A stretch of 64,000 bases of DNA from a virus. A model generated the notes under the pieces. The model was not told the origin of the DNA. It did not search any database and worked only from the letters and a program-made list of their open reading frames with translations. The translations under genes were made by a program, and so were the position numbers. The first letter of the stretch is position 1. Every line of letters starts with the position of its first letter. Where the stretch lies: positions 1 to 64,000 of the IMG/VR virus record IMGVR_UViG_3300022744_000020, one strand, 5' to 3'. Of the stretch, positions 44,075-60,304 are shown one piece after another.

Positions 44075-47000
44075 TCAGTAATTCCGACGCATGCTGACGG
44101 GTGCAGCAGCGCGATAGACCGTTTGACTTGGCAGTCCTCCATTTTCAAACTGCGGTGCCGCCCTTTGGGGCGTTTGCTTTCTTTGCTCCGACTCATCCGG
44201 AACCGAGATAGGCTGTGCTGCTGTAGCCGGGGCTTGTTTTTCAGCACGACTATCTCGGTCTTGAACATACTTCATATACTCGGTAACCTTTTGCAAGATT
44301 TTCTTTTCCGTCTCTACCGAGTCTCTGAGCAGATTGGAGATCGGCTCAAGACTAGCTTGTGCCAAAGCAATCTGAGGATTCTCCGGTCTTTGCGCGTTTT
44401 TACCACCTTCAAAGGAAGCATTTCCGAAACCAAATTCCGGGAACGAGTTGGGTGCCGGAATCCTTTTCCTTCTATCTTCCCTGGGAGGCGCGTCCCCGAA
44501 CGACATGGTCGGATACCCGTCAGCCCTCTCTTTACTAGATTCTACTGGCCCGGATGAGCTAGAAGTCCTAGGGGGTTGCGGAATCTCCGCAGGAGTATAT
44601 GCCGTCTGTGCCGTCTCAGGGACCGTCGGAGCTAGGGTCGCCACCGACGATGCTCCAGCATCTCTCCACGGCCTGCTAGAAGCCTTCTCTGCCGCTTTTG
44701 AGGGCTCTTTTCTGGGAACGATCGCCGGTACCGAAGTCGCGCTCGGCGCGGCGTTTGTCGGAGTCGTCGACTCCTTACTTGTCGCGGGTCCCGCCGATTC
44801 AGAACCTGAAGACTTACCCTCAGATTTAGGAGCCGACGGAATGCTTGAAGTCACCGCCGCGACGTTTACCCCGTGTGCTGCTGCCTTGGTTTTGAGCTTC
44901 TCTCCAAATTCGTTGTAGATTTCTCTCAACGTTTTTGTTTCCCCGTTCTTCTTGAAGAACACACTGGAGTTACCAGGCTTCTGGGAAGGTCCAGGGAAAA
45001 TCCGAGCCCCAGAGAGGGTGTCGTTCGTCTTCAGATTCTTCAGGAACTTTTCAGCTCCGTACGGTCCGAAGAAGTGACCCAGGTGAATATCGGTTGGCGT
45101 CGGGTTCGGGACGATCTGTTTGATTCTGGCTTCCGCATCCTTAACGTAGTGGGCACCCATCAAGGCGTTAGCCGGACCGTCCTTGGGATCGTTGAATGAC
45201 ATTCCCTTGTATTTGCTACCGTACTTCTCCACCGTTTCGGCCCAAGTACCGGGCATGAACTGGTTCAGTCCCAACCCTGTCACACCTTGGACACCTGCTT
45301 TTGGATCAAAGCCGGATTCGACAGCCACCGTAGCAACAGCCAAATCTACAGGAGCACCCACCATCTTAGCAGCCGAAGCTACCATGGAAGCCACTTCTTG
45401 CTTACTTCCGGTCTTAAGAGGGGGAAGTGTTCCAGGGTTTGGATTGGTGTCTGGTGGAGACATCGCCATGATCGGCTTAACTCCAGGCGCTGCACCACCG
45501 TTTCCAGCAGTTTCGACCTTGGACTTCAACGGAGTAGATCCTCCGGACATCGCCTCTGGCTTTTTCTCACCTTCAGCTTTGCTAGCCGGAGCCGCGCCAT
45601 CCAGGTTAATCGTTTCAAACCTGGATTTACTCGCCGGAGCCGAAGGAGTGCCTGGAGCTGTTTTAGCAACTTGCGCCAGCGCAGCCATCGGTTTGGCTGC
45701 TCCCTTTTCCCCCACGCTGCCAGGAACGCTAGATCCCCCAGGAGAAGAGATCAAGCTCGATGGCTTCGAGGGTCCAGGAGCTCCGGCCGCTTGGGCCGCA
45801 GGAGTAGCCGCTGCCGCTGTGCTTGGCGATGCCGCTGACGGATCGACCGGCTTAGTGGTGACGTTGGGTGTAGCAGGTGCCTGAAGAATCTTGGTTGCCA
45901 TTTCCAAGTTTCTGGACCCCAAAGGAGTGCCACGGACAGAGCCCCAACCACCCCCACCTCTTCCGACGCCGGACGCGATTGCTGCATCCGCCAGATCAGG
46001 CCGGTCTTTGTACTTACTGATCCCAAGCTGGATACCAACAGGCTCCAGATGCCAGTCTTCCCCACCCACCGGTCTGGTCAAACCGTACTTCTTGAGAAGT
46101 CCCAGCTTATCCATTTCGGTTAAGTCAGGGCCGTGAGCATCCACAGCAAACCCAAAGCCGTGTAAGCTTTCTCCCGGTACCGCCGCACCCTTACCGTAGA
46201 GTTGTCTCAGGCGAACTTGCTCAGCGTGTGTGCGCGTCGCTTCATTCACTCTGAGCTTCTTCCCAGTGAGTTGCTTGTACTCTTCCGCTGCCCCGCTGAG
46301 TAGTTTCACGAACGTGGGATTCATACCCTCCATGATGACCTTTGGTCCCATCACCATCGAGGAGAAGCCATTGCGTCCATCAGACAACGCCCCACCGGCC
46401 ATATTCAGAGTACCAACGGAAGCCCCGGATACCCCAGGAGTCGAGGGTCCAGATCCACCTCCACCTCCCGTAGAGGTTGGCTTTGCCTCGCCGTCAGATG
46501 CTGCGGCTGCGGTTTGCGTTCTCTCCGCACTGATCTCAGCAAACGTTCTTTGCTTCGCTCCGGTAGTTCCTGCCAGCTTGTCTTTGATTGCCCTGGAAGC
46601 TTCTGCGGTATCCTTAGGCCCTGCAGGAGGCGTTGCTTTTCTGGCATCCTCCATCAACTTAACTTTCTTGACAATTTCTTCCAAGAAGGTCAGGTTGTTT
46701 TTCGTACTGGTCGGATCCGTGTTCAGTCGATAATTCGGGAACGGAGAAGCCGTGACTTCCCAGCAATCAGACATGGCTGCCAACTGCTTTGCGGTGTCGT
46801 ACTGCTGATCTGGTTTCAGATCCGACACGTTCCCCGAGTAATTATTCTTCCCAGTGTGTTGGACATACAAGCTGTGGAACTTCAGCCAGATGGGAAGGAA
46901 TCTCTTCTGGAACCACTTCTTCCAATCGTCTCCCTCAGTGTAGTAGGTGTCGACGATGCCGAACAAGCCGGCAAACTTCTCCACCAACACTTCAGGATTT

Positions 47001-50000
47001 CCATTCCAAGAGGAACTTCCGGCTTTGGAAATAGTACCTTCCGAAATCGCCGCTTCCAACTCCTTGAGAATTCGTACCTTTTCAGCCGTCAGCTCTGTCA
47101 AGCCATACGCCTTGAACTTAACTGCGTCAAGCGCTCCGAGGTGCCCCTCTTGCTTGATGGCCGAGTAACTCGCAACAGCCGCCTCTACGGTGATTTTGGA
47201 TCCAGCAAAAGCCACGTCAGTCTTAACGGTTTCTCCGGCAGACTCCTTCGAGGGTTTTCCGTCAGGCGCCAGGTTGGGATCTACGGGTCTTTCGGCGTTG
47301 ATCTTAACAGGCTCTAGTGGTGTCGCGGACTTACGCTTCACCTTATCCAAACCCAACTCTTGCATGACTTGTCGGATGATCGCTTGGACGTGACCACCGG
47401 AAGAAATGCCGAACTTGTAATCCAGATACGGACTCAGCGCCAAATGGTACGGACCATCTGGGAACTTCGCCAGATCAATGTACTGAAGGATTTTCTCCTT
47501 GTCCAGGGAAGAGATCTTATCCGTCGAATAACTACCAGCGATTTGCTTCATCGCTCCGGCAGTCATCAAGTACACTGGTTTGAAGCGTCTCTGATACCAG
47601 TCGAAGAAATGTTGAGCTTGTTGGGGATCAGTGTGATCCAGACCGAACAACCCCATGATTTCCTTCGATGGGAATTTCGATTCGTCGATCTTCACTCCGT
47701 CACCGGAAGAACCAACCAAAGGCTCAAGGTATCTCTCCATCGACAAGATGGCTTTGTATCCATCCTTGTCGTCCTTGTTGAGACCGTATTGAACCAGACG
47801 AATCTTGTCTTGAACCGTGAGTTGGTACTTGAAGTGCTGGTAGAGTTTGTAGCCACCGTAAGCGGCCAAACCCACACCCACTGCGGCAATCGTGACGGGG
47901 TTCGTCAGCAGCGCCAGCAGAGCGCTTCCACCCCCTGCTGCTGCGGCACCACCAGCTACGGTAGCTGCTCCTCCGGCTGCTGCCGCACCCGCCGTGGCGG
48001 CACCTGCGGCAGCAGCGCCAGCGGCTGCAGTACCCGCCGCTCCGACAGCCCCAGTAGCAGCAGCGGCCGCTCCGGTTCCCATTAAGCCACTGGCAACACC
48101 GCCAAACCCTGCGAGCCTTGCAGCCATTCCAAGAAGCTTCGTAAACCCAGTGAGTTTACTGAGTCCTTTAATTGCACCCAACACCCCCTTGCCCATGTCC
48201 ATGATTCCACGGATCCCGGCAAGCATGTCACCAATGCCTTCAAACAAGCTTTTCTTCTTGTCGTCGACTTTGTCTTTGACCTTTTGAATACCGCCCTTGA
48301 TCCGGTCTTTGAGAGATTTCTTTCCCTCAGCAGCCGCATTGGCGCGCTGGTCTTGCCAGGAACCATCACGGTCTCCGTCACCATCCTTGTCGTTCTTGGA
48401 TTTCGGAGCACCACCAGGAAGCCTCGTGTCGATCAGGTTGTAGATGTCAGTCAGAATGTCATTGGTCTTCTGGCTGGACATACCCAGACCCAGCAGAGGC
48501 CCTTCCCCAAAAATCTTTTCCCATCCACCCTTAGCGACACGTCCAGCAGCCCCACCAATCGCGGAGAGAACCTTCTTGCCTCCACGCCACATGGCCCCAG
48601 TGAGCTTTTTGGTCACGCCCCAAGCTGCAACGTGGGTTTTCCACAAAGCTTTACCCACGGCCGTGAGTGGCGACATCAGCTTCTGCAGAGGCGTCTTGAT
48701 CTTCTTTCCGTTTTCATCCACCAGACCTTGCTGGAGCATGTCGTGCGTTAAGATTTCATTGCCTTCCAAATCCATGACCGCGCCGTCGATTTGACTCGGT
48801 TTGAGAATTGGCTTCTGACTTACCTTGCTGATGTAGCCTCCGGCCTTCATGACGGCTGCGATCAATACTGGATTGGGTAAGCCCTTGACGTAAATGTCTT
48901 TGGGTTTATCCAAGAGTCCGTAGGCCCCTTTGGCAATCGTCCAGGGCAGTTTAACGGCTTTACCAACCATCTTGGTTTGCCACATGAGCATTCCAGGGGT
49001 GGCTTTTGCAATCGCCCCTACGACTTTACCCACTCCTTTGGTCAGAGCCCCAAGGGTGGCGGTTGCGCCATTCAGAAGCTTTTTGACCACACCCTCTTGA
49101 TAGTACAGCCTGGGGATTTCGTCCTCTTTGAGCAAGACATTGCCCTTGAAATCTTTGACCTCGCCCTTGATATCCTTGTGGGAACTCAGGGGTTTTCCAG
49201 ATTGTGCATCGTAGTAGAGTTTCTTCTTGAATCCGTCAGACGTGAGTTTAGGTTCGTCATCTTCCCCGTGGAGATAAACGTCTCGTGGTCCCAATCCCAA
49301 AGCCTTCTTGCCCAACCAGCCGATGCCTTGGAATTGTTTCTTTGTTGCCCACCATGCAGCCTTATTGATGCCAAGGACCGTAGATCCAGCCATGCCTAAA
49401 CCACGGCGAATCAAACCCTTCTTGGGAGATCCAGGAGTCGGTTCGAATTCCGGACCTTGTTCCTCTTCTTGTGCAGCTCCTGGCTTCTTGCGACGAAGGA
49501 GATTTCCAATCCAAGAGGATTTCTTTGAAGCGCCCTTGTTGCCACTTTGCAGCAGCTTCTCGATAGCTGTGAGTTTCTCCAGCGCTTTCTTCTGAATACC
49601 AACCAGGGCCGGATCAGCGCTTGACGCATCTTCCGAAAAAACACCAGGGCTACCGATAGATTCGGATTTCCCTGACCGTGCAGGCTGTTTGGGTTCAGTT
49701 CGAGTTGTCGCGGCTTGACCAGCGGGCCCAGTTTGTGAAGGCTGCGCCACGCTCGACACTCTCGGAGAGGCTACCGGATCCGCAAACGTTCGATTGGATT
49801 CAGAAGAACTCATTCCGAGCGTAGCCAACGCATTGTCTCTGACCTCTCTCGTCGTGCTTTGGAAGTCCTTGAGCTTTTGCTTGGTTTCGTCAGACTCGAC
49901 ATAACGACGAACATCCGAAGAAACTTCCGAAACTGAAGAGCTGACAGAGTCCATCAGCACTCGAGTGCCGGATTTCGGATTGCTGAGTTCTTCCGATGCT

Positions 50001-53000
50001 TTTTGAGCAGCCTTAATACCAGCCTCGGTAGCCGTCTTAGCAGCAGAGGACAAAGTCTTGAACAAAGATCCAGCCAGGGAGGATATTTCCTTCTTGGTTT
50101 TCTCCACTTGATCTTGGGTCTTCTGGGATGTCAGGGTTTTAGAAACCGCTTTCCCAGAACGTTGAGCAGCCTCAACGCCAGCCCGCACAGCTTGACCAGC
50201 AGAATCCGCTGCCTTTTGAGTTTTCGATTTCGGGACCTCGGTCTGACGGACTGTGCCCTCATCCGTAACTGAAGACTGAGGAGCGGCGACATCCGTTTGA
50301 GTCTGAACCATACCTTCAGCCGCAGGGCTTGGGGTGGGTGCCAAGCTTTGCATCGCTTGGTCTTTAATCTTACTTGCCCCACTTACTGCGTCTTGGTAGC
50401 TCTGGGCGGCCGCGTGCTGAACCTGATCAACGACCTGAGAAGCTCTTGAAACAATTGAAGCCGGTGGGTTAGGCAAAGGAGTCGAAGCGGGCAGCGGAGC
50501 GGGGGCTGAAACAACCGAAGCTGCGACAGCCGCACTTGCCGGATCACTCAAACCACGAACCACTTCGGCCGCAAATGTCTGCAGACTTTCCTGTACCGAT
50601 GTAGCAATCTTGCTAGAGATCTCTTTGGCTTGTTCGGCTTTACTCTCGACCAAATTACGGGCTGAATCCACTCGTTCCGAAACAGTCTCCGGAACGTTAT
50701 TTGGTACGTCCGTGATCGAACTCACCGAATCGGTCGATGTCGGGAGGTTATCCGGGCGTTTCGGACCCATCAACTCCTGCTGGAAATGCCGACGATAAGC
50801 CTGCATGATGACCCCAGCATCTTTATTGATGCCGTTTTCTTTTGCAGCTCTTGCCGCATCGCGGATCTTCTGGAGATCAAATCGACCATCGGTCTTGTAC
50901 GGGGCAAATTTATCCGGCTCAGAATCCTTGGGTGCGGAAGGTGGAGACTTCGGCTCGTTATTTGCCTGTAGGTCTTGAAGTCCTTGGGGAATTTCTTGGG
51001 TCTCTTGAGGGGTTGGGTCAGAATGCTCAGAGGTTTCTTTCGGCTGCCTTCTGAGTTTGGCTTTTTGCTCCTCCACCCAAGACTGACGACGAGTCGCACC
51101 ATCGATACTCGGCAGGTCCGCTCGATCTCCTGCTTTGCCTCGCGCCTTTGCTCCCTTGGAGGCTAATTGCGTCAACTCGTAAAAGGCTCGGGGATCGTGC
51201 CATTTGTTCTCTTTGATATACGCTTGGATCAGCTTGAAGACTTCTTCGGTCTTCAGTCCTTCCATTGCCTTGTCTTTGATCAGCGCGACGATCTTTTGCT
51301 TGTCCAATAAACCGTCCGTTCTCCAGGCGTCGAATCCATCATTGACCTTTTGAGTCAAGTTATCGATGTGGGAGCCGACCGTCGAGGTCACCGACTGCGT
51401 CGCTGTGGCAATGTTTTCACGAAGACCGGGAGTCCGCGTGTCGCCATTTTGATCCGCGCTACTTCCAGGCATTCTGATCGAAGAGATGCGACTCAGCAAA
51501 TCAGATCCGGCTGAGCCAACCTTCTCGGCAATCGCATTGATCTTGTCAATGATTAGCTCACCAATGCTGAGTTTGCCAACGTGCAACGAGTCTAACTTCC
51601 ATTGGGTGGGAAGGGTTGCTGCATTTCCCGACGGTTCTTGATTCGGTACAGGACCAGCACCCGTCGGGATATCCGCACTGGAGCCCGGCCCAACGTTGAG
51701 ATCTCCGATTGGAGCAACCTCCGAAATATCTCGGCGAAGCTGATCGCCAAAATGACTCGTGCTAGGACGAGCGTTGGGGAGCGTCGGCTTTTGCTTTTCC
51801 TGAGCGGACTGCATCAGTTCGGCCGTTCCCGTTTTACGAATCGTCAGGTCGATGATTTTCTGAGGATCGAGCTGCCCCCGCTCATCCATAAGTCCCAAAT
51901 CAATCAGGTCTCGACCATGTCCGAGCTTGTTGAGCTCTTCCATGATTTTTCGGGGATCCTTGATGGCCTCCCGCAATTTGAAGTATCCCGATTGAACCTC
52001 ATTAAGTTTCTTTTGATCCCCCTCCAGCTCATCGAAACGCCCCGACATGTGGGAGGTGATTTCCTGGCGAGTTTCGTGATCGGTTCCCCAATACTGATCT
52101 TCCTCAGCGTAGTTTTCACGATTGAAATGCTTATCGTTGATCGACCCATTCATCAATTTTTCTTTGAGTGCCACTTTGGCCTTCTCAGAAAGCTTGCCTT
52201 CAGGGTCGATCTTGGCAAACATCTCCTTGAACTTGTAATCGCTTCCTCTTTTCTCGCGCTCGCCCACCACGGTTTCAGCAAGGCGCTTGAGTTTTTCCGA
52301 TCGGTCAATGAGCTTCCCCGTCGACTGATCCACTTCGGTAAGCTCTATCGATTCATCGCCCGTGCGAAAGATCTGGACTTCTCTCAGAATTCGAGCCAGA
52401 TACCCTGGAATGATTTCATTGATCGAGCGTTCAGTTCTCTTGGTCATGCCAGCAGTAGGCATATCCAACTTGTCGGTAGAGCGGTCAGCGACCCTGGTGT
52501 CTACCCCAGAGCTTGGGATAAAATCAGCGAGCTCTTGCTTGACCATCCCCATCATCGTGGGGTCCCATTCATTCTGAGCGTCCTCTTTGAACTTTCTCAG
52601 ATCCGCACCAGCGTTGTTGCGTTTATTGATCAGCCATTCACTACCAGCGTTGATTTTCTGGGAGCCGTAGTCCAAACCGGCGTTGAGTTTGTCATTGAGC
52701 CAGCCGGATTTGGTATTGACTTTACGGTCCCGAGTGACGGCGTATTCTCTGATTCTTTTGCCAACCTTCTTACCCAGCCATTGGGTGCCGAAGCTGCCTG
52801 CGGCTTTGGCCGTTTCGACCTTGCCATCCAAAGGCATGCCGGCTTCTTCAGCCATCGCGGCGGCGTCCTTGGCCTGCTCGTGCATGTCGGCAGCGTCACG
52901 AACACCATCCTTGAATCCGCTGACGAGTCCATTAACCTTTTGAGTCGCCTTTTCTTTCAGATCTTTCAGTGCGGTCTCAATGAAAGCGTTGGCTCCTCCG

Positions 53001-53881
53001 AAGAGATTGTCCCCGATGGTCTGGACGATCTTTTGTTTGTTGTACTCTTTGAGGAATTCGACGTTGGTTTGTTTGACGAATTCAGGAAGGCCCGTGTTCT
53101 TGACGATCTTGGGGAAAGAGTCCAGTGTCATCTTCCCCGTAGAGTCACCAATCTTGACCAAGTCTTGAACAGCAAACAAAGTACGGTACGCTGCTTCAAG
53201 CTGCTTCTTTTGCAACTCAAGAGAAACGTTTCTACCCAACTGCTCCATCTTGGAAGTATCGACCTGGATTTGGCTGACCAGGGTCAGCATGTCCGTGTGT
53301 CGCTTCTGCTGGATGCCTTTCTCGATATCGCTCTGGGCTTCTTCCCTTTCTCGGGCCCATTCATCTCGCTGAATGTTGGCCTTCATCACCGAAGCGATTT
53401 GAGATTCAATGAAATTGTTTTGAATCTCCCCCTTGGAAGGGGCTCGATATACCGATTCCTCTTCGTTGGGTTCGCTTTTCCATTTATTCATCAAGTCTTT
53501 GACGGACTTGGGAACGTACTTGGATTCGGCCGGGATGATCTGGGTTGTGAGCTTCTTGAACTCTTTGATTGCGGGCTTGACCTCCTTGACGGCATCCCCG
53601 TAGAGGACTTGAGCGCTTCTGGAAACGCTCTTAGCCATGTCGTACGTTTCACCGTAGCCAGAAGGCAGAACATCCTTGAAGAGATTCTCCAAGAAGTTCG
53701 AGTCTTTCAGGCCGCTTTCAATGCCCGTCATCATGCCGTCGAGCACCTTCATCGAAGGGCTTCGATCGTCCGGAGGAGGCTCTGCATCAAACTCAAACGG
53801 ATCGCTGTCCAACTCCTTATCGAAATCAAAATCGTCCGGCGTCGCTTCTTGATGCTTAGGGGAGCGTGTGAAAATACTCAT
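44075..53881 (-). CDS. Giant tape-measure-like protein with M15 peptidase and SLT lytic transglycosylase domains
   Basis: A 3268-residue protein, almost 10 kb. The N-terminal ~1100 residues are long charged helices. Residues ~1530-1730 hold a duplicated ~75-residue unit (PRDVYLHG..., PKDIYVKG...). Ala/Gly-rich hydrophobic helices at ~1930-2020 look able to insert into a membrane, and another duplicated ~140-residue unit follows (~2020-2165 and ~2250-2390). Residues ~2527-2612 are an M15-type peptidase (RVNEATRTHAEQ, SLHGFGFAVDAHG, EDWHLEP: His, Asp and His zinc ligands). Residues ~2827-2954 are an SLT lytic transglycosylase (AVATVAVESGFDPKA with catalytic Glu ~2855, then GLGLNQFMPGTW, LGHFFGPYGAEKFL). 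It would run through the tail and open cell wall for DNA entry. No clear ribosome binding site precedes the ATG. Its place next to the RNAP genes matches the muralytic gp181 of phiKZ as I recall it. Confidence 0.88.
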   Translation of the reverse strand: MSIFTRSPKHQEATPDDFDFDKELDSDPFEFDAEPPPDDRSPSMKVLDGMMTGIESGLKDSNFLENLFKDVLPSGYGETYDMAKSVSRSAQVLYGDAVKEVKPAIKEFKKLTTQIIPAESKYVPKSVKDLMNKWKSEPNEEESVYRAPSKGEIQNNFIESQIASVMKANIQRDEWAREREEAQSDIEKGIQQKRHTDMLTLVSQIQVDTSKMEQLGRNVSLELQKKQLEAAYRTLFAVQDLVKIGDSTGKMTLDSFPKIVKNTGLPEFVKQTNVEFLKEYNKQKIVQTIGDNLFGGANAFIETALKDLKEKATQKVNGLVSGFKDGVRDAADMHEQAKDAAAMAEEAGMPLDGKVETAKAAGSFGTQWLGKKVGKRIREYAVTRDRKVNTKSGWLNDKLNAGLDYGSQKINAGSEWLINKRNNAGADLRKFKEDAQNEWDPTMMGMVKQELADFIPSSGVDTRVADRSTDKLDMPTAGMTKRTERSINEIIPGYLARILREVQIFRTGDESIELTEVDQSTGKLIDRSEKLKRLAETVVGEREKRGSDYKFKEMFAKIDPEGKLSEKAKVALKEKLMNGSINDKHFNRENYAEEDQYWGTDHETRQEITSHMSGRFDELEGDQKKLNEVQSGYFKLREAIKDPRKIMEELNKLGHGRDLIDLGLMDERGQLDPQKIIDLTIRKTGTAELMQSAQEKQKPTLPNARPSTSHFGDQLRRDISEVAPIGDLNVGPGSSADIPTGAGPVPNQEPSGNAATLPTQWKLDSLHVGKLSIGELIIDKINAIAEKVGSAGSDLLSRISSIRMPGSSADQNGDTRTPGLRENIATATQSVTSTVGSHIDNLTQKVNDGFDAWRTDGLLDKQKIVALIKDKAMEGLKTEEVFKLIQAYIKENKWHDPRAFYELTQLASKGAKARGKAGDRADLPSIDGATRRQSWVEEQKAKLRRQPKETSEHSDPTPQETQEIPQGLQDLQANNEPKSPPSAPKDSEPDKFAPYKTDGRFDLQKIRDAARAAKENGINKDAGVIMQAYRRHFQQELMGPKRPDNLPTSTDSVSSITDVPNNVPETVSERVDSARNLVESKAEQAKEISSKIATSVQESLQTFAAEVVRGLSDPASAAVAASVVSAPAPLPASTPLPNPPASIVSRASQVVDQVQHAAAQSYQDAVSGASKIKDQAMQSLAPTPSPAAEGMVQTQTDVAAPQSSVTDEGTVRQTEVPKSKTQKAADSAGQAVRAGVEAAQRSGKAVSKTLTSQKTQDQVEKTKKEISSLAGSLFKTLSSAAKTATEAGIKAAQKASEELSNPKSGTRVLMDSVSSSVSEVSSDVRRYVESDETKQKLKDFQSTTREVRDNALATLGMSSSESNRTFADPVASPRVSSVAQPSQTGPAGQAATTRTEPKQPARSGKSESIGSPGVFSEDASSADPALVGIQKKALEKLTAIEKLLQSGNKGASKKSSWIGNLLRRKKPGAAQEEEQGPEFEPTPGSPKKGLIRRGLGMAGSTVLGINKAAWWATKKQFQGIGWLGKKALGLGPRDVYLHGEDDEPKLTSDGFKKKLYYDAQSGKPLSSHKDIKGEVKDFKGNVLLKEDEIPRLYYQEGVVKKLLNGATATLGALTKGVGKVVGAIAKATPGMLMWQTKMVGKAVKLPWTIAKGAYGLLDKPKDIYVKGLPNPVLIAAVMKAGGYISKVSQKPILKPSQIDGAVMDLEGNEILTHDMLQQGLVDENGKKIKTPLQKLMSPLTAVGKALWKTHVAAWGVTKKLTGAMWRGGKKVLSAIGGAAGRVAKGGWEKIFGEGPLLGLGMSSQKTNDILTDIYNLIDTRLPGGAPKSKNDKDGDGDRDGSWQDQRANAAAEGKKSLKDRIKGGIQKVKDKVDDKKKSLFEGIGDMLAGIRGIMDMGKGVLGAIKGLSKLTGFTKLLGMAARLAGFGGVASGLMGTGAAAAATGAVGAAGTAAAGAAAAGAATAGAAAAGGAATVAGGAAAAGGGSALLALLTNPVTIAAVGVGLAAYGGYKLYQHFKYQLTVQDKIRLVQYGLNKDDKDGYKAILSMERYLEPLVGSSGDGVKIDESKFPSKEIMGLFGLDHTDPQQAQHFFDWYQRRFKPVYLMTAGAMKQIAGSYSTDKISSLDKEKILQYIDLAKFPDGPYHLALSPYLDYKFGISSGGHVQAIIRQVMQELGLDKVKRKSATPLEPVKINAERPVDPNLAPDGKPSKESAGETVKTDVAFAGSKITVEAAVASYSAIKQEGHLGALDAVKFKAYGLTELTAEKVRILKELEAAISEGTISKAGSSSWNGNPEVLVEKFAGLFGIVDTYYTEGDDWKKWFQKRFLPIWLKFHSLYVQHTGKNNYSGNVSDLKPDQQYDTAKQLAAMSDCWEVTASPFPNYRLNTDPTSTKNNLTFLEEIVKKVKLMEDARKATPPAGPKDTAEASRAIKDKLAGTTGAKQRTFAEISAERTQTAAAASDGEAKPTSTGGGGGSGPSTPGVSGASVGTLNMAGGALSDGRNGFSSMVMGPKVIMEGMNPTFVKLLSGAAEEYKQLTGKKLRVNEATRTHAEQVRLRQLYGKGAAVPGESLHGFGFAVDAHGPDLTEMDKLGLLKKYGLTRPVGGEDWHLEPVGIQLGISKYKDRPDLADAAIASGVGRGGGGWGSVRGTPLGSRNLEMATKILQAPATPNVTTKPVDPSAASPSTAAAATPAAQAAGAPGPSKPSSLISSPGGSSVPGSVGEKGAAKPMAALAQVAKTAPGTPSAPASKSRFETINLDGAAPASKAEGEKKPEAMSGGSTPLKSKVETAGNGGAAPGVKPIMAMSPPDTNPNPGTLPPLKTGSKQEVASMVASAAKMVGAPVDLAVATVAVESGFDPKAGVQGVTGLGLNQFMPGTWAETVEKYGSKYKGMSFNDPKDGPANALMGAHYVKDAEARIKQIVPNPTPTDIHLGHFFGPYGAEKFLKNLKTNDTLSGARIFPGPSQKPGNSSVFFKKNGETKTLREIYNEFGEKLKTKAAAHGVNVAAVTSSIPSAPKSEGKSSGSESAGPATSKESTTPTNAAPSATSVPAIVPRKEPSKAAEKASSRPWRDAGASSVATLAPTVPETAQTAYTPAEIPQPPRTSSSSGPVESSKERADGYPTMSFGDAPPREDRRKRIPAPNSFPEFGFGNASFEGGKNAQRPENPQIALAQASLEPISNLLRDSVETEKKILQKVTEYMKYVQDRDSRAEKQAPATAAQPISVPDESEQRKQTPQRAAPQFENGGLPSQTVYRAAAPVSMRRNY
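46710..47830 (-). repeat. Internal duplication in the tape-measure gene (unit 2)
   Basis: Two diverged ~140-residue copies at ~47390-47830 and ~46710-47140. Both carry K(I/F)..(V/K)..YGL, a helix with a central LxxExx, then GLFG(L/I) and the segment W(Y/F)Q(R/K)RF.P(V/I), then a S.L...K... helix and an SP.P/L.Y end. Limits are approximate. Confidence 0.6.
48676..49295 (-). repeat. Internal duplication in the tape-measure gene (unit 1)
   Basis: Two protein copies, ~49072-49295 and ~48676-48912, each ~75 residues, spaced by ~126 residues. Shared positions: P(R/K)D(V/I)Y, a Lys/Tyr strand, KP, an I.G.V.D..GN..L strand, and a (V/L)...E/N..KK end. Only the protein similarity is plain; the DNA has diverged. 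Confidence 0.7.
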
Positions 53882-54063: not shown

Positions 54064-55698
54064 ATGCGTTTTAAACAATTCACCCCATTGAACTTGGGGA
54101 TTTTGATCATCGAAGACCGTATCGCCAAAGTGACCAAGCCTGTCACCAGTTTGGATGACTTCGATGGGATGACAAAGAATTTTCACAAAGACGGTTTGTT
54201 CTCCCAAGAAATTTTTGGATTGGTCGGCTCGGACATGCGATTCAAGAAGTATTCTTGGATCAACATGAAGGTTGGGGTTCTTCACCCTGAGGCTCATTCA
54301 TGTTTGGTAGCTTTGAAAGGACTCTACGGCGGAATTCTCCGGGGGTCCGATTACGCCATTTGGGACGAAGAGAAGAAGGACTTTTTCAAAAGCAATGCGC
54401 TGGAGGGTCAGACCGGATACCAGTTCTTCATTGACCACTGGAAGGACATCGTCTTTGAGCGGAACAAGTCGGTTCAGCGATCAGAAATGATTGACTTCTT
54501 GGAGAAGTACAAAAACCGATTGGTGTTGGATCGTCTGTTTGTCTTCGCCGCCGGCTACCGCGATCTGGAGACTGACGACACGGGTCGTGCTACTTCGGAT
54601 GACGTGAACAAACTCTACAAGAAGGTTCTGGCGATCTCGAATACCGTGGACCCCACGACTCTGGAGTACACGCCAAACGCCTACAACACTCAGCGCTTCT
54701 CGCTTCAATTGGCACTGAACGAGATTTACGAATACGTTTTCAACATTCTGGACGGTAAGAACGGAATGTTCATGGGCAAGTACGCTTCGCGTGCTCTGTC
54801 TTATGGCACACGAAACGTGATCACATCGCTGAAGTTGGACAACTCCAGGTTGGGGGCCAAGGGTAATGTTCGTGCCAACCATGCCGGCATCGGTATTTAC
54901 CAGTTGGCAAAGGCAATTGAGCCAGTTGCTATCTTCCATCTGAAGAACGGCTTCCTCTCCAAGGTCTTCACGTCGCAGACGAGTCCAGCGCTGCTTTGCA
55001 ATCCCAACACGATGCGCTCTGAGAGAGCCATGGTGGAGACGAAGGATTTTGATCGTTGGATGACCCGTCCTGGTTTGTCGGATGTTATCAACTACTACGC
55101 CAACCCTGGGGTTCGAAACAAGCCCATCATGGTGGGAAGTTATTACCTGGGTTTGATCTACCGGGGTCCGGATAAGACTTTCAAGTTACTCAGTGGCATT
55201 GACGAGCTGCCACGAGGGAGAAATCCGGAAGACTGTAGTCCCATCACCTACACGGATCTTCTCTACATCGCCTTGTACCGAAGAGCTGAGAAATACCCGC
55301 TCTTCGTGACTCGGTATCCGATTGACTCGGATCGCTCTACATTCCCAGCCAAGCCGTATCTTTTCTCCACCATTGAAACGGAAGTAAGAAAAGAGCTGGA
55401 TGATCAGTGGCAAGAACAGCCTCCTGAATTCACCGCATACCAGTTTCCAGTTTCGACCAGCGATACGTTCGGCTCGCTGGCTCCTCACCCTGGACGACTG
55501 GCAAAAATGAAAGCGGACTTTGACGGGGACATGTCCTCGGCAAATTCCGTAATGGCTGAAGAATCTATCGAGGATGTGGATTCTTTAATGAATAACAAAC
55601 GTTTCTACGTCGGGGCTGATGGGCAGTTTGTGATCAACTGCGCTACCGACACTGTGAAATATGTCCTGATGGCCATGACCCGAAAGGTTTCCCAATGA
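54064..55698 (+). CDS. RNA polymerase beta' subunit, N-terminal part (catalytic)
   Basis: A 544-residue protein equal to the N-terminal half of beta'. Seen in order: DGLFSQEIFGLVGSD (about 43-57; equivalent of DGLFCARIFGPVKD); no zinc-ribbon cysteines after it; LHPEAHSCLVALKGL (as SPTAHIWFLKSL); RALSYGTRNVITSLKLD (as DYSGRSVITVGP); and HPGRLAKMKADFDGDMSSAN with the three catalytic aspartates D485, D487 and D489 that hold the active-site magnesium. The C-terminal half (bridge helix, trigger loop) is absent and must be a separate gene outside this window. In phiKZ the virion RNAP has a split beta', packed in the capsid and injected to transcribe early genes. The ribosome binding site GGAG is at eight bases. 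The stop overlaps the beta start by four bases. Confidence 0.93.
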   Translation: MRFKQFTPLNLGILIIEDRIAKVTKPVTSLDDFDGMTKNFHKDGLFSQEIFGLVGSDMRFKKYSWINMKVGVLHPEAHSCLVALKGLYGGILRGSDYAIWDEEKKDFFKSNALEGQTGYQFFIDHWKDIVFERNKSVQRSEMIDFLEKYKNRLVLDRLFVFAAGYRDLETDDTGRATSDDVNKLYKKVLAISNTVDPTTLEYTPNAYNTQRFSLQLALNEIYEYVFNILDGKNGMFMGKYASRALSYGTRNVITSLKLDNSRLGAKGNVRANHAGIGIYQLAKAIEPVAIFHLKNGFLSKVFTSQTSPALLCNPNTMRSERAMVETKDFDRWMTRPGLSDVINYYANPGVRNKPIMVGSYYLGLIYRGPDKTFKLLSGIDELPRGRNPEDCSPITYTDLLYIALYRRAEKYPLFVTRYPIDSDRSTFPAKPYLFSTIETEVRKELDDQWQEQPPEFTAYQFPVSTSDTFGSLAPHPGRLAKMKADFDGDMSSANSVMAEESIEDVDSLMNNKRFYVGADGQFVINCATDTVKYVLMAMTRKVSQ

Positions 55699-58600
55699 GC
55701 ATGAATTTTGACATCTGGCTGCGCAAGTTTGCAGCCCATGAACTCTCTCAGGTCGTTACCCCGAAGCTGAGAACCCTCAACGATTGGGAGTTCCCGCAAT
55801 CGTCGGTTTATCACTATCAGCTTGCGGATGGAATCGAGATGGGTCCAGGACCTGACGATATCTACGTCCGAAAGATTGAGCGCGCCATCCTCTTCCAGAA
55901 CGTCACGAAGCTCAGTCGTCTGGAAGGTAATCCGAGATTCAGTGCCGGGTTGGAAACCAACATCATCAAGGCTTATCGCGCCAGTAATAAACGCGTGAGA
56001 CCTTTGGCTACTTTGGCTTCTGCGGTATCCGACACCCAGTCTCTGCTGCTGATTAACTACGCGCCGCTGGGGAAAACCTATCGGTACGTGAAGAATGTTT
56101 TCACCGTTTATCACAAGTGGCTGAACTCTTTCTCCACCACGGTGGATGAAATCGTTAAAGCCTGCGAGGTGTTGCCGCATCATGCGCATTTCCTCTTTGC
56201 TGGAACGCCAACGCTGATCCCCAGCGTTTCTCAGTACGAAAGTGCTGAGAAGAATTTCGTGCAGAACGATCTGAAGTTCTTCATCGGTCGAGATGCGTTC
56301 TTGTCGCTGGAATTCTGGAAGTGGCTGTCATCGAATCGTCAGGCAAGCATTCTGGCGAAGATCCCCAAGAATCACCTGAAGAAAGTGAACATCGTCTACC
56401 AAGAAACGGGTAAATGGGTTTGCTTGAACCTGGGTTATCTGGACAGTTTCCGGAATCCTCAAGCAAACGATCCATGGGCTGGGATGGAGTCGGGAGTTGC
56501 CAAGCCTGATAGCAGCCTTTCCCCGGAGCAGATTCAAAAGCGCTATCTTCGTTTCCTGATGACTCTCATGCAAGAGAGAACGGTCACGGCCAACACCGAA
56601 GACGAAGACGATAAAGCCGATGATGCACGCATCGGGCAAATCGAGAAAGGCGCACCTGAAATCAAGAAAGAGGATCAGCAAGCTGACGGTGGTGATGACG
56701 TTGGTCTTACGCCGGAACAAGTGGCTGCAAAGATCCAGGCTGAGGATGCAGAGATCGATCACGACTTGGCTCAGCTCAACGAAATACTCTCGAAAAATTA
56801 CAACAAGCAAACGGAGAGTGTTGCCGAGATCCTACAGGCACCAATGTCGGAGATAGAAGCCAACACGATCGACAGATGCCAACGACTGGCGGAAGATGGT
56901 CTGCTGACCGCCAAGGAGATGGCGCGCTTCAAGAAACTCTCCACGTCATACAAGTCTTTACCGAGCCCTTATGGTGACGGCACCATTGAGCAAAGCATCG
57001 ATTTGTCGGATCCTGAGCTGACTAAGCTCAAAGTGCAGGAGATCATCAAGACTCCCACGGTTCACGACGAGTCGATGCTGAAATCCAGTCTGACGACATT
57101 CGATCTGGATTATCAAAAGAAAACGCTCAACAAGCACACCGTTGCCTGCGTGATGGCCGCTCAACGAGCAGGTGGTGCGATCACCGCCTACGAAGTTGAT
57201 AAGGTCGAAAACATCCTTGGCGCTTACGAAGTACACAGCGTCAAGTACGTTCCGATCGAAGGAGCCCCGAGCACTTGGAAATTCAAACGACCTGTTCTGA
57301 ATGATGATGGCACGTTCACTTCGAATGGAACTCGGTATCGCTTGAGAAAGCAGCGTATCGATCTTCCGATTCGCAAAATTTCACCGAAGGAAGTTTTGCT
57401 GACAAGCTATTTCGGTAAAGTCAAGGTACTCAGATCGCGCAAGCGACAACACGACTTTGGCGAATGGCTGGCTGATCGTGTCATGAATGACGCGATGACC
57501 AAACGCAATCCGCTCATCACCAGTGTGTCGATGAGCGACAGCTTTGATTCAGAGCTGAAGGCGCCTCGAGCCTACACCAGCCTGTCCATGAATTATCGGT
57601 TCATTGACACGCCTCAATGGAGGCTGATGTTTGACCAGGAAGAAGTTCTCAAAGCAGTGGATCCTGCTGTGACGAACGCGGCACGGTCCTTGGGGAATTT
57701 GGTCATCTCCTACAGAGAAGATGGCGGGTACCTCATGCTTGACTCGCATGGTGCCGTGCATGAAGTCCTTCCGGACCAACCAGTCAAGGTACTCACGAGT
57801 CTGGAGGAGTTTCTCGGAATCCCGGTACATGAAGCTCCGATTGATTTTGCTGAGGTGAAGATCTACGGCAAAGAAATCCCGGTGGGTCTGATCCTGTCTT
57901 ATTACAAGGGACTGAGCAATCTGCTGAACATTCTGGGCATTCAGTACCGAAGAGAGCAAACGGGCACACGAACGACGGCGAATCTGGGCGAGTGGGCCCT
58001 CACCTTTGCAGATGAGCGCCTTGTCTTCTCCAGAGACGATAAGTTTGCTTGTCTGGTTTTGGGTGGGTTCCGAGATTACCAAAAGATCCTCACGCTTTAT
58101 TCGGTCTACTCTTTCGATCAGCGGGGAGTCTACCTGAATGTGCTGGAATCGGCAAAGCTGGGCGTTCGCTATCTGAGGGAGATGGGTTTGATGAACGACA
58201 TGTTCGTTGATCCCATCACGCTTGAGATCCTGAAGAAGATGAAGGAGCCCCAGAAGTTTGAAGGGCTCCTGCTGCGCGCATGTGAACTTCTCCTCAGCGA
58301 CAGCCACCCGAAGGAAATCGATCCTGACTTCATGCGCATTCGAGGGAACGAACGATTCGCTGGTGTCATCTACACCGAAATCGTGGCCAGCCTTCGTGCG
58401 CACAACGCTCAGATTGGGAAGTCTGGCAAGCGCGTAGAAATGCATCCGTTTGCTATCGATAAGCGAATCAGTGAAGATTCGTCTAAGATGCAATGCGACG
58501 AGCTGAATCCCATTCAAGCGCTGAAAGAAATCGAAGCTGTTACCTACACGGGTGAGGGTGGTAGATCTATCCGCTCGATGACGAAGAAGACCCGAGGCTA

Positions 58601-58799
58601 CCACAAGAACGATCGGGATCTGATTTCTGAAGCGACGGTGGATAGCTCGATGGTGGCTATCAATGTCTATACCAGTGCGAATCCAAAGCTGGAAGACCTC
58701 AGCGGAAATGCCGAGAAACGAGTAGGCACTGAGAAATCGACACCGGGATCCATGCTTTCTACGTCGGCTCTACTCGCACCCGCGTGTGACCGTGACGAT
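55695..58799 (+). CDS. RNA polymerase beta subunit, exon 1 (interrupted by a group I intron)
   Basis: Exon 1 encodes the first 1035 residues. Translation without splicing would stop at TAA 58800-58802, just inside the intron. Residues ~290-360 contain an acidic, charged insertion (TANTEDEDDKADD). Near the end, GRSIRSMTKKTRGYHKNDRD, LISEATVDSSMVAINVYTSANP and STPGSMLSTSALLAPACDRDD follow the bacterial segment from ETPEGPNIGLI to GASLIPFLEHDD. The sequence continues only in exon 2, so the spliced product is ~1407 residues and lacks only the C-terminal part encoded at 36115. The N-terminal portion is longer than in bacteria. The start overlaps the end of beta' (ATGA). In phiKZ relatives this subunit belongs to the virion RNAP, packaged and injected with the genome. 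Confidence 0.9.
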
Positions 58800-59185
58800 T
58801 AAGTCGTACTGAATAGGTGCGATATGGTCACCCTTGACGGTAACGTCTCGTGGTAATCCTCTTGAACTGCGGGGACCCCCTTAGAGCCTTGTGTACCAAG
58901 TGCGGTCCGTAATGATCGCATGGCCGTTCTAACCAAACGGGTATGGTAAAAAGCACAAGGATTGGGAAATCGCGCATCCAAGCTTCCCACTTACCGATGA
59001 GTCGGTAAAGGAAGAAGGTTCAACGACTAGGGCCTTGTCAGCCCGTACCTACCAAGCGGTGGGGAAGTAGGAGGCTCCAGAAGAGATTCTGGATGCAGAT
59101 ATAGTCTGTTCTGCATCGAAAGGTGCAGCAGTCCAGCTAAACGTAAGCTGGACGGTCTGGATTAGCGTCCCAGATGAACATAAAG
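58800..59185 (+). ncRNA. Group I self-splicing intron, no ORF
   Basis: 386 nt. P1: exon bases ACGAT (58795-58799) pair with GTCGT (58803-58807), the last exon U facing G as required for the 5' splice site, with a 3-base UAA loop that also stops unspliced translation. P7: GACTA (59025-59029, in GGTTCAACGACTAG) pairs with TAGTC (59102-59106, in AGATATAGTC), the most typical motif pair of group I introns. CGGGGACCCCCTTAG (58868-58883) looks like the P4 region. P9-type hairpins are CTGCA/TGCAG and GTCCAGCT/AAGCTGGAC. The last base is G59185, the expected 3' terminal G. Joining 58799 to 59186 reads GAT-CCA and restores the conserved DDxxR motif of beta. There is no reading frame for a homing endonuclease, so mobility must come from elsewhere or is lost. 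Confidence 0.92.
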
Positions 59186-60304
59186 CCAAAGCGAATAAAT
59201 TTTATTTCAATCCAACAAGGCCATACCGTTCCCTGTGCTGGATACCATGCACCGGTGATGAGAACTGGTTATGAAGCGGTCATCGCTCATCGTACCACGG
59301 ATACCTTTGCCTATACGGCTAAAAAACCTGGAAAGGTCTTGAAGGTAAATCCGAAGGGGATCATCATCGAGTACGAAGACGGTGAGCGCGTTGGGTTGCG
59401 CTTGGGTAGACGGTTCGGTCTGGCCTCTGGCATGACGGTTCCGCACGATGTCGTCACGTTCCAAAAAGAAGGTGCGACTTTCCAAGTCGGAGATTGCATC
59501 TCTTACAACGAAGGATTTTTCGAGCGAGACATCTTCAGCCCGAATTGCGTGGTGATGAAGAACTCCCTGGTGTGTCGTGCGGTGATCATGGAGTCTTCGG
59601 ATACGCTGGAAGACTCCTCAACCATCTCCCCTAAGTTGGCAAAGAAGTTGTCGACAAAGGTGACGCACACCATCACCAAGGTGGTCCGGTTCGATCAAAC
59701 AGTCACCAACGTTCTGGAAGAAGGTCAAGCGGTTAGTTTTGACACGGTGCTGTGCTATATCCAGTCCGACGCCTCGGCAAACTCGGCTGCGTTCTCTGAC
59801 GAAACACTGGAAACGCTTGAGGCCCTGGATACTGGAACCCCGAGGGCTCGGGTAGATGGGGTGGTGGATGCCGTCGAGGTTTACTACCATGGCGAGCTGT
59901 TGGATATGAATGAGTCGCTTCAGATCCTGGCAAAGCAAAGCAACGAGAGACTCAAGAAAAAAGCCGAACAATCGGAAACCACAGCATTCACAGGACAAGT
60001 GGATGGAGGCTTCCGCATTCAAGGCACGCCAATGCCGATTGAGAACGTGGCGATTCGCTTCTACATCACCAGCGACACCCCCGCCGGTGTCGGGGATAAG
60101 GGTGTGGTTGCGAACCAGATGAAGACAGTCCACGGAGCGATAATGGATGGGGTTTACAGAAGCGAAGACGGTCAAGAAATTGATTTGATTTTCGGCGCTC
60201 AATCGTTCGATGCTCGGATTGTGAATTCGCCGTACATCCTCGGTATGGTCACCACGGTGCGCCAACTCACCTCCAAGAGAGCCGCAGAGATGTATTTCTC
60301 ATGA
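59186..60304 (+). CDS. RNA polymerase beta subunit, exon 2
   Basis: Exon 2 encodes 372 residues. PKRINFISIQQGHTVP is the direct continuation of the exon 1 end and matches ANRALMGANMQRQAVP of bacterial beta. VGDKGVVANQMK (about residue 1338 of the spliced product) matches the GNKGVIS part of the active-site loop. LIFGAQSFDARIVNSPYILGM matches LNPLGVPSRMNIGQILET. The protein ends there, and the remaining beta C-terminus is the separate gene at 36115. The in-frame ATG at 59174 lies within the intron and has no ribosome binding site, so exon 2 is not an independent gene. The exon is shorter than the equivalent of E. coli beta, as loops are missing. Confidence 0.9.
   Translation, partial: PKRINFISIQQGHTVPCAGYHAPVMRTGYEAVIAHRTTDTFAYTAKKPGKVLKVNPKGIIIEYEDGERVGLRLGRRFGLASGMTVPHDVVTFQKEGATFQVGDCISYNEGFFERDIFSPNCVVMKNSLVCRAVIMESSDTLEDSSTISPKLAKKLSTKVTHTITKVVRFDQTVTNVLEEGQAVSFDTVLCYIQSDASANSAAFSDETLETLEALDTGTPRARVDGVVDAVEVYYHGELLDMNESLQILAKQSNERLKKKAEQSETTAFTGQVDGGFRIQGTPMPIENVAIRFYITSDTPAGVGDKGVVANQMKTVHGAIMDGVYRSEDGQEIDLIFGAQSFDARIVNSPYILGMVTTVRQLTSKRAAEMYFS

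Follow-up and report, generated by a model that had tools for sequence, protein, structure and literature searches.

A group I intron lacking an endonuclease gene at the Asp-Asp site of a virion-type RNA polymerase beta gene

The beta subunit gene of the virion-type RNA polymerase (RNAP) in this phage is interrupted by a 386 nt group I intron, which carries no endonuclease gene of its own. The stretch analysed, referred to here as the window, is bases 1–64000 of a 270,383-base virus record (G000), and the intron lies at 58800–59185 on its plus strand. The identification as a group I intron within this gene is confirmed and goes beyond chance resemblance. The intron core, its exact site, the intact exons, and the lack of an internal endonuclease gene are directly visible, and at the same site in other phages there are related introns with an endonuclease gene, with scraps of one, and without one. 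It is quite probable that this is a splicing-competent intron at an Asp-Asp homing site and that it has lost its endonuclease gene; by occupying the site it may still shield the phage from the endonucleases of this site family.

Exon 1 (55695–58799, plus strand) encodes 1035 aa ending in ...RDD and matches positions 5–1050 of phrog_3148 (E 1.7e-286), a 'RNA polymerase beta subunit' profile with a length of 1424. Exon 2 (59186–60304, plus strand) begins PKRINF..., encodes 372 aa followed by a stop codon, and matches positions 1051–1420 (E 1.4e-136), such that the two exons abut exactly at 1050|1051. The last letters of exon 1 are ...GACGAT, ending at 58799, and exon 2 opens with CCAAAGCG at 59186; the insertion follows the second Asp codon, in phase 0. 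The first-pass annotation had described a 386 nt insert between the DD and PKR codons, and both boundaries, 58799|58800 and 59185|59186, are correct. Its proposal that joining the exons restores the frame and the motif also holds, in that the joined exons encode 1407 aa with zero internal stops (...ACDRDD|PKRINFISIQQ...) and phrog_3148 runs on without a break across the junction. Without splicing, a TAA at 58800–58802, the first three bases of the insert, ends beta after 1035 aa, which is the truncated product that had been predicted.

Immediately upstream of beta there is a gene for a neighbouring RNAP subunit (phrog_2986, 54064–55698, plus strand). The gene order in phiKZ is comparable, with gp180 ahead of gp178 and gp179 in between. 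Also beside the RNAP genes, at 44075–53881 of the window, is a minus-strand ORF of 3268 codons. The closest named relatives of exon 1 are the RNAP beta proteins of phiKZ-like phages, at about 34–35% identity at best. Neither the two exons of beta, nor the protein across the joined junction, nor the adjacent RNAP subunit has a Pfam match, and a sequence search of exon 1 against solved structures found no match. Elsewhere in the record, a single weak and partial match to the phiKZ nuclear shell protein gp54 lies at 102518–103405 (E 2.3e-8, 24% identity over query positions 299–582). On this match the host of the intron, a phage of the phiKZ type, is probably nucleus-forming.

The RF00028 model matches 58798–59128 (plus strand) over its whole length, 1–253, at 57.9 bits (E 4.2e-12) where the curated cut-off is 50 bits, in agreement with the initial description of the insert as a group I intron. 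None of 100 shuffles folds as stably as the insert strand, for which the folding z-score is -4.65. A U precedes the 5' splice site and the final base of the intron, at 59185, is a G, as had been claimed. The 5' strand of P7 and its neighbours, GTTCAACGACTA at 59018–59029 (plus strand), has identical letters in 22 of 25 distinct introns of this site, the pattern being absent from L048, L063, and L072. The 3' strand of P7 is within AGATATAGTC at 59097–59106 (plus strand), as placed from the sequence and the RF00028 alignment. The P7 helix of the first-pass annotation can be seen here, GACUA at 59025–59029 pairing with UAGUC at 59102–59106, where the pairing is judged by eye.

For P1 there are two candidates, both on the plus strand. 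In the first (58795–58807), exon bases ACGAU at 58795–58799 pair with GUCGU at 58803–58807, making 5 bp closed by a 3-nt loop. In the second (58797–58830), GAU|UA at 58797–58801 pairs with UGGUC at 58826–58830, enclosing a strong hairpin, GUCGUACU/GGUGCGAU, and this is the minimum-energy fold. Both place a U.G pair at U58799, and the splice site is therefore unchanged by the choice between them. The U.G pair at the splice site that was described earlier is common to both candidates, and the P1 helix described with it is one of the two pairings. A comparative rule for P1, 'GU(C/U) plus intron-side extension', did not separate them and was rejected, as the window does no better under it than shuffles, which reach the second candidate in 29% (fraction 0.29), and several relatives fail it.

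The same sequence could be read as a dead intron with beta made as two polypeptides, residues 1–1035 and a C-terminal piece from an ATG at 59174 (MNIKPKRINF...). This ATG is in frame within the last 12 bases of the intron and opens a frame of 376 aa, and split RNAP subunits are described as usual in jumbo phages in a passage of PMC7598289. However, the intron core is intact by RF00028, the break would sit inside an active-site motif, relatives repeatedly have junctions of this phase, and by eye there is no clear ribosome-binding sequence directly ahead of 59174, all of which makes a split beta very improbable. The intact core, intact exons, and conserved site suggest instead that the intron is spliced in cells, and it would excise itself from the beta mRNA.

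The longest frame within the intron, a minus-strand one, has 63 aa, so the intron does lack an endonuclease ORF, as first noted; no scrap of an endonuclease was found in it either. Beyond the intron, there is no match to HNH_3, GIY-YIG, or NUMOD4 in the 270-kb record, which is possibly incomplete; the same searches gave matches in control genomes. A 9-row profile made from the site's own endonucleases likewise has no match in the record. This profile recovers full-length genes in PhiPA3 and 2050HW, both of which are in its alignment, and has strong matches in phiKZ and HPP-Temi, neither of which is. A single site endonuclease used as the query, in a search without its own control, also found no match there. 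The first-pass annotation had offered two possibilities, that the intron is a relic or that it depends on an endonuclease encoded elsewhere, and, because these families and the site profile are unmatched in the record, the relic is preferred. There is also no second RF00028 match in the record, whereas at least two matches (E up to 0.001, some below the cut-off) are present in 14 of 15 other records searched, FLC9 having none. Nine RF00028 matches are present in the 113-kb record G007, the source of L089.

Among the collected introns, the best match by E-value to the window's intron is L039 (72.8% over 169 columns), followed by L046 (69.1% over 207 columns) and L059 (72.3% over 130 columns). 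All three bear a long ORF at this same site, and the first two would favour an ancestor with an endonuclease gene. By tree path the nearest are L039, L046, the PhiPA3 intron beside gp085, and L059, with no supported clade. The drawn sister of the window's intron is Va1, an intron from another gene (88/79, on a long branch), and the introns of the same site are hardly closer than the one beside gp085. This position in the intron tree, which is without strong support, counts against the case for loss of the endonuclease. The tree does not recover the introns of the site as one clade: those of other genes are interspersed with them, and only 7 of its 36 inner branches have good support. A degenerate core pattern matched the L039 and L046 contigs alone; because it was written from the L039/L046 alignments, this is informative solely for the absence of others.

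Occupancy of the Asp-Asp site was assessed with an exon 2 profile that stops short of the junction, using the best 80 of 160 IMG/VR beta loci. An insert of >300 bases separates the exons in 23 of these 80, being exactly at the Asp-Asp site in 19 and a few codons downstream in 4. Among these 19, L106 agrees in record length and intron with 2050HW, a member of the named set as well. Another, L087, has tandem RF00028 introns (2240–2558 and 2571–2950) at or near the site. The Rfam cut-off is reached by 16 of the 18 site loci scanned, with L048 and L059 below it. Also below it are the site inserts of Totoro, Yaphecito (37.5 bits), EL, BUCT660, and HHBS47_1 (39.3 bits). The four downstream inserts (L079, L080, L082, and L096, site B), three of which have ORFs of about 350–360 aa, have no RF00028 match; they are excluded from the site counts and are not termed group I.

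Among 60 of the 276 records of named phages, taken at even spacing, Yaphecito, HPP-Temi, 2050HW, Totoro, and EL are occupied at the site; in phiKp_32 and Machias beta is interrupted at other positions, and these were set aside from the site counts. It is conceivable that the insert is an artefact of assembly, given that its source is an IMG/VR virus record, yet genomes of named phages have related introns at this very base position, and the likelihood of an artefact is close to nil.

Of the 102 loci that were measured, 69 are empty at the site, and in these intron-less relatives, a comparison that the first-pass annotation had proposed, beta reads straight through. Of 94 beta rows, 13 have an intron with a long endonuclease-type ORF (classed by length in all 13, at 249–413 aa), 12 are ORF-less, 5 have an insert nearby, and 64 are empty, such that ORF-less forms are about as common as those with the long ORF. 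HNH_3 was matched (E up to 0.001) by all six scanned of the 13, four of them above the curated cut-off. The loci were ranked by similarity to a 17-row profile containing six intron-bearing phages and the window, and because this profile holds intron carriers and some rows were fetched as occupied, the occupancy rates are only indicative. An exon 1 query of IMG/VR found no close relative of this beta, and hence no near relative with an empty site; the nearest beta row to the window is 49% identical in exon 2. A junction query found nine relatives in IMG/VR, all uninterrupted at the site, and this set was not used for the 80-locus rate because one of the search patterns spans the junction, favouring empty sites. 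On comparison of these sequences, the Asp-Asp site is a turnover hotspot, which is new beyond the published PhiPA3 case.

On the beta tree, at least 19 changes of occupancy are needed over 89 rows. L001, AR9, PBS1, and Machias were left out of this tree, as were the near-duplicates L014, L022, L064, L078, L086, L088, L093, and L106. The four states taken together require 28 changes, against 28.3 in shuffles, and are not clustered, while the label 'empty' is slightly clustered (22 against 25.5, equally low in 28 of 500 shuffles). These figures bear on whether the insert has been kept for regulation, with splicing delaying or gating the production of beta, a function suggested for certain phage introns. 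The unspliced frame does halt at the first intron codon, as it does in 17 of 25 distinct site introns, and a 'molecular switch' role for phage introns is discussed in part of PMC11878797. However, with 69 of 102 loci empty and so many changes of occupancy, the intron cannot be generally needed, and a regulatory role is an unlikely reason for its presence.

On the intron tree, introns with the long ORF and those without are mixed, with at least 8 changes of ORF presence, although the tree is poorly supported and its well-supported branches force 3 changes for each label. EL, BUCT660, the site B rows, L016, and L106 were left out of this tree, and L087 was divided into two rows under the label 'other'. 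Three ORF-less introns retain parts of an endonuclease frame: L089 has both ends of the L083 endonuclease gene (E 7e-11 and 4e-4), and L108 and L072 have the C-terminal end. These scraps demonstrate that loss of the endonuclease does happen.

As the window's intron has no such scrap, it may never have had an endonuclease, the ORF-less form being the older state, moved either by an endonuclease that another phage supplied or when neighbouring DNA was copied, with endonuclease genes invading some introns later. The mixing of ORF-less and ORF-bearing forms on the intron tree would fit with this, as would the fact that scrap-free ORF-less forms are common. It is nevertheless rather doubtful, given that loss was the direction of change in the three ORF-less introns with scraps and that the two best matches of the window's intron carry the gene at this same site.

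There are natural pairs in which the site differs between otherwise very similar sequences. L055 and L056 are identical over 4110 bp downstream and 99.5% identical upstream, and an intron is present at the Asp-Asp site in one, absent from the other. This intron is 1306 nt with a 306-aa ORF. Six of the eight upstream differences are no more than 109 nt from the site, with only silent changes among the last 30 codons, a pattern as expected of recent homing with co-conversion. Serratia phage 2050HW (L006) and BUCT660 have flanks that are 98.8% and 99.2% identical, with different introns at the site. Comparing L006 with L011/L022, where the flanks are about 98.5–99% identical, the intron is 1371 nt with a 328-aa ORF in the former and 424 nt with no ORF in the latter. 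Provided that the Asp-Asp codons are retained, the last base of the Yaphecito/BUCT660 intron (L011 3206–3207, L022 1500–1501) would be A instead of G. In the 5' ends of the introns of L006, L035, L055, L059, and L074, there is a segment near +30 capable of pairing with the endonuclease ORF's ribosome-binding region; this helix beats shuffles at p<0.05 in 5 of 13 endonuclease introns, with L087 at 0.050 and the other seven not doing so.

The preferred reading, of an intron that has lost its endonuclease, would begin with a mobile intron whose 5' part contained the gene for an HNH endonuclease, this gene then having been lost in the lineage of the window. Without it, the intron could no longer start its own homing. 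It would persist because only exact removal restores the essential beta, imprecise removal destroying the enzyme. Because the intron interrupts the homing target, the phage should escape cutting by site-family (gp210-type) endonucleases of co-infecting phages, a protection that is suggested by the published specificity of gp210. A further possibility, put forward tentatively, is that ORF-less introns are kept as resistance alleles, their carriers being immune to gp210-like enzymes and themselves unarmed, with nucleus-forming phages in constant contest over the site. Forms that are armed, decaying, unarmed, or empty coexist at one position in many relatives, and whether the unarmed introns survive as a cheap shield or are mere leftovers is thereby open to testing. 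It is the hotspot, and this question of a shield, that are of added interest here, the insertion site itself having already been published for PhiPA3. In the literature listings and openly available passages that were covered, which led to the PhiPA3 paper and to reviews, there was no account of ORF-less introns at the Asp-Asp site or of its occupancy across phages.

Group I introns are found in essential genes of other phages, with or without endonuclease genes, as in T4 td and the SPO1-type phages, where they are in other genes. In AR9 and PBS1, group I introns are present in the same gene as that of the window, and AR9 intron 1, which headed the list of phage-collection matches to the window's intron, is 69.8% identical to it over about 180 nt. 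The five AR9 introns are, however, elsewhere in beta, and the AR9 counterpart of the Asp-Asp site is uninterrupted (from translations compared by eye). In phiKZ (W06), an RF00028 match of 92.2 bits at 186396–186717 on the minus strand adjoins the endonuclease-like gp179 between gp180 and gp178, despite which the Asp-Asp site itself is empty.

The introns of HPP-Temi (348 nt), EL/HHBS47_1 (415 nt), and Yaphecito/BUCT660 (424 nt) share both the site and the lack of an ORF with that of the window, but have diverged in sequence, and among them only that of HPP-Temi reaches the Rfam cut-off. In these five deposited giant-phage genomes (L007, L011, L012, L014, and L022) beta is annotated as two CDSs with no intron feature, and is probably one spliced gene. 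The Serratia phages 2050HW and Totoro also have the site in common with the window, where their introns (1371 nt with a 328-aa ORF and 1683 nt with a 413-aa ORF) contain annotated endonucleases and that of the window is ORF-less.

The intron of PhiPA3 is the published case at this position. The relevant passages of Birkholz et al. 2024 (PMC11620839) place an intron with the nicking endonuclease gp210 after two Asp codons of the PhiPA3 vRNAP, with mention of E. coli D675. They report that gp210 nicks the empty PhiKZ site, with PhiPA3 thereby gaining an advantage in co-infection, and that PhiKZ escape mutants alter the second Asp codon; a PhiPA3 strain lacking gp210 is also described, and the endonuclease is presented there as helping the virus to outcompete a rival in the same cell. 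As derived here, the boundaries in PhiPA3 (L005 4645|5998) are at the same codon position as in the window, which bears out the earlier suggestion of a case related to that of a phiKZ relative, minus the endonuclease. The two introns are alike in gene, base position, and group I core (67.8 bits in PhiPA3), but that of PhiPA3 is 1352 nt with a nicking HNH gene, that of the window is 386 nt without one, and they are not each other's nearest rows. The window's intron is thus a further, unarmed case at the PhiPA3 site.
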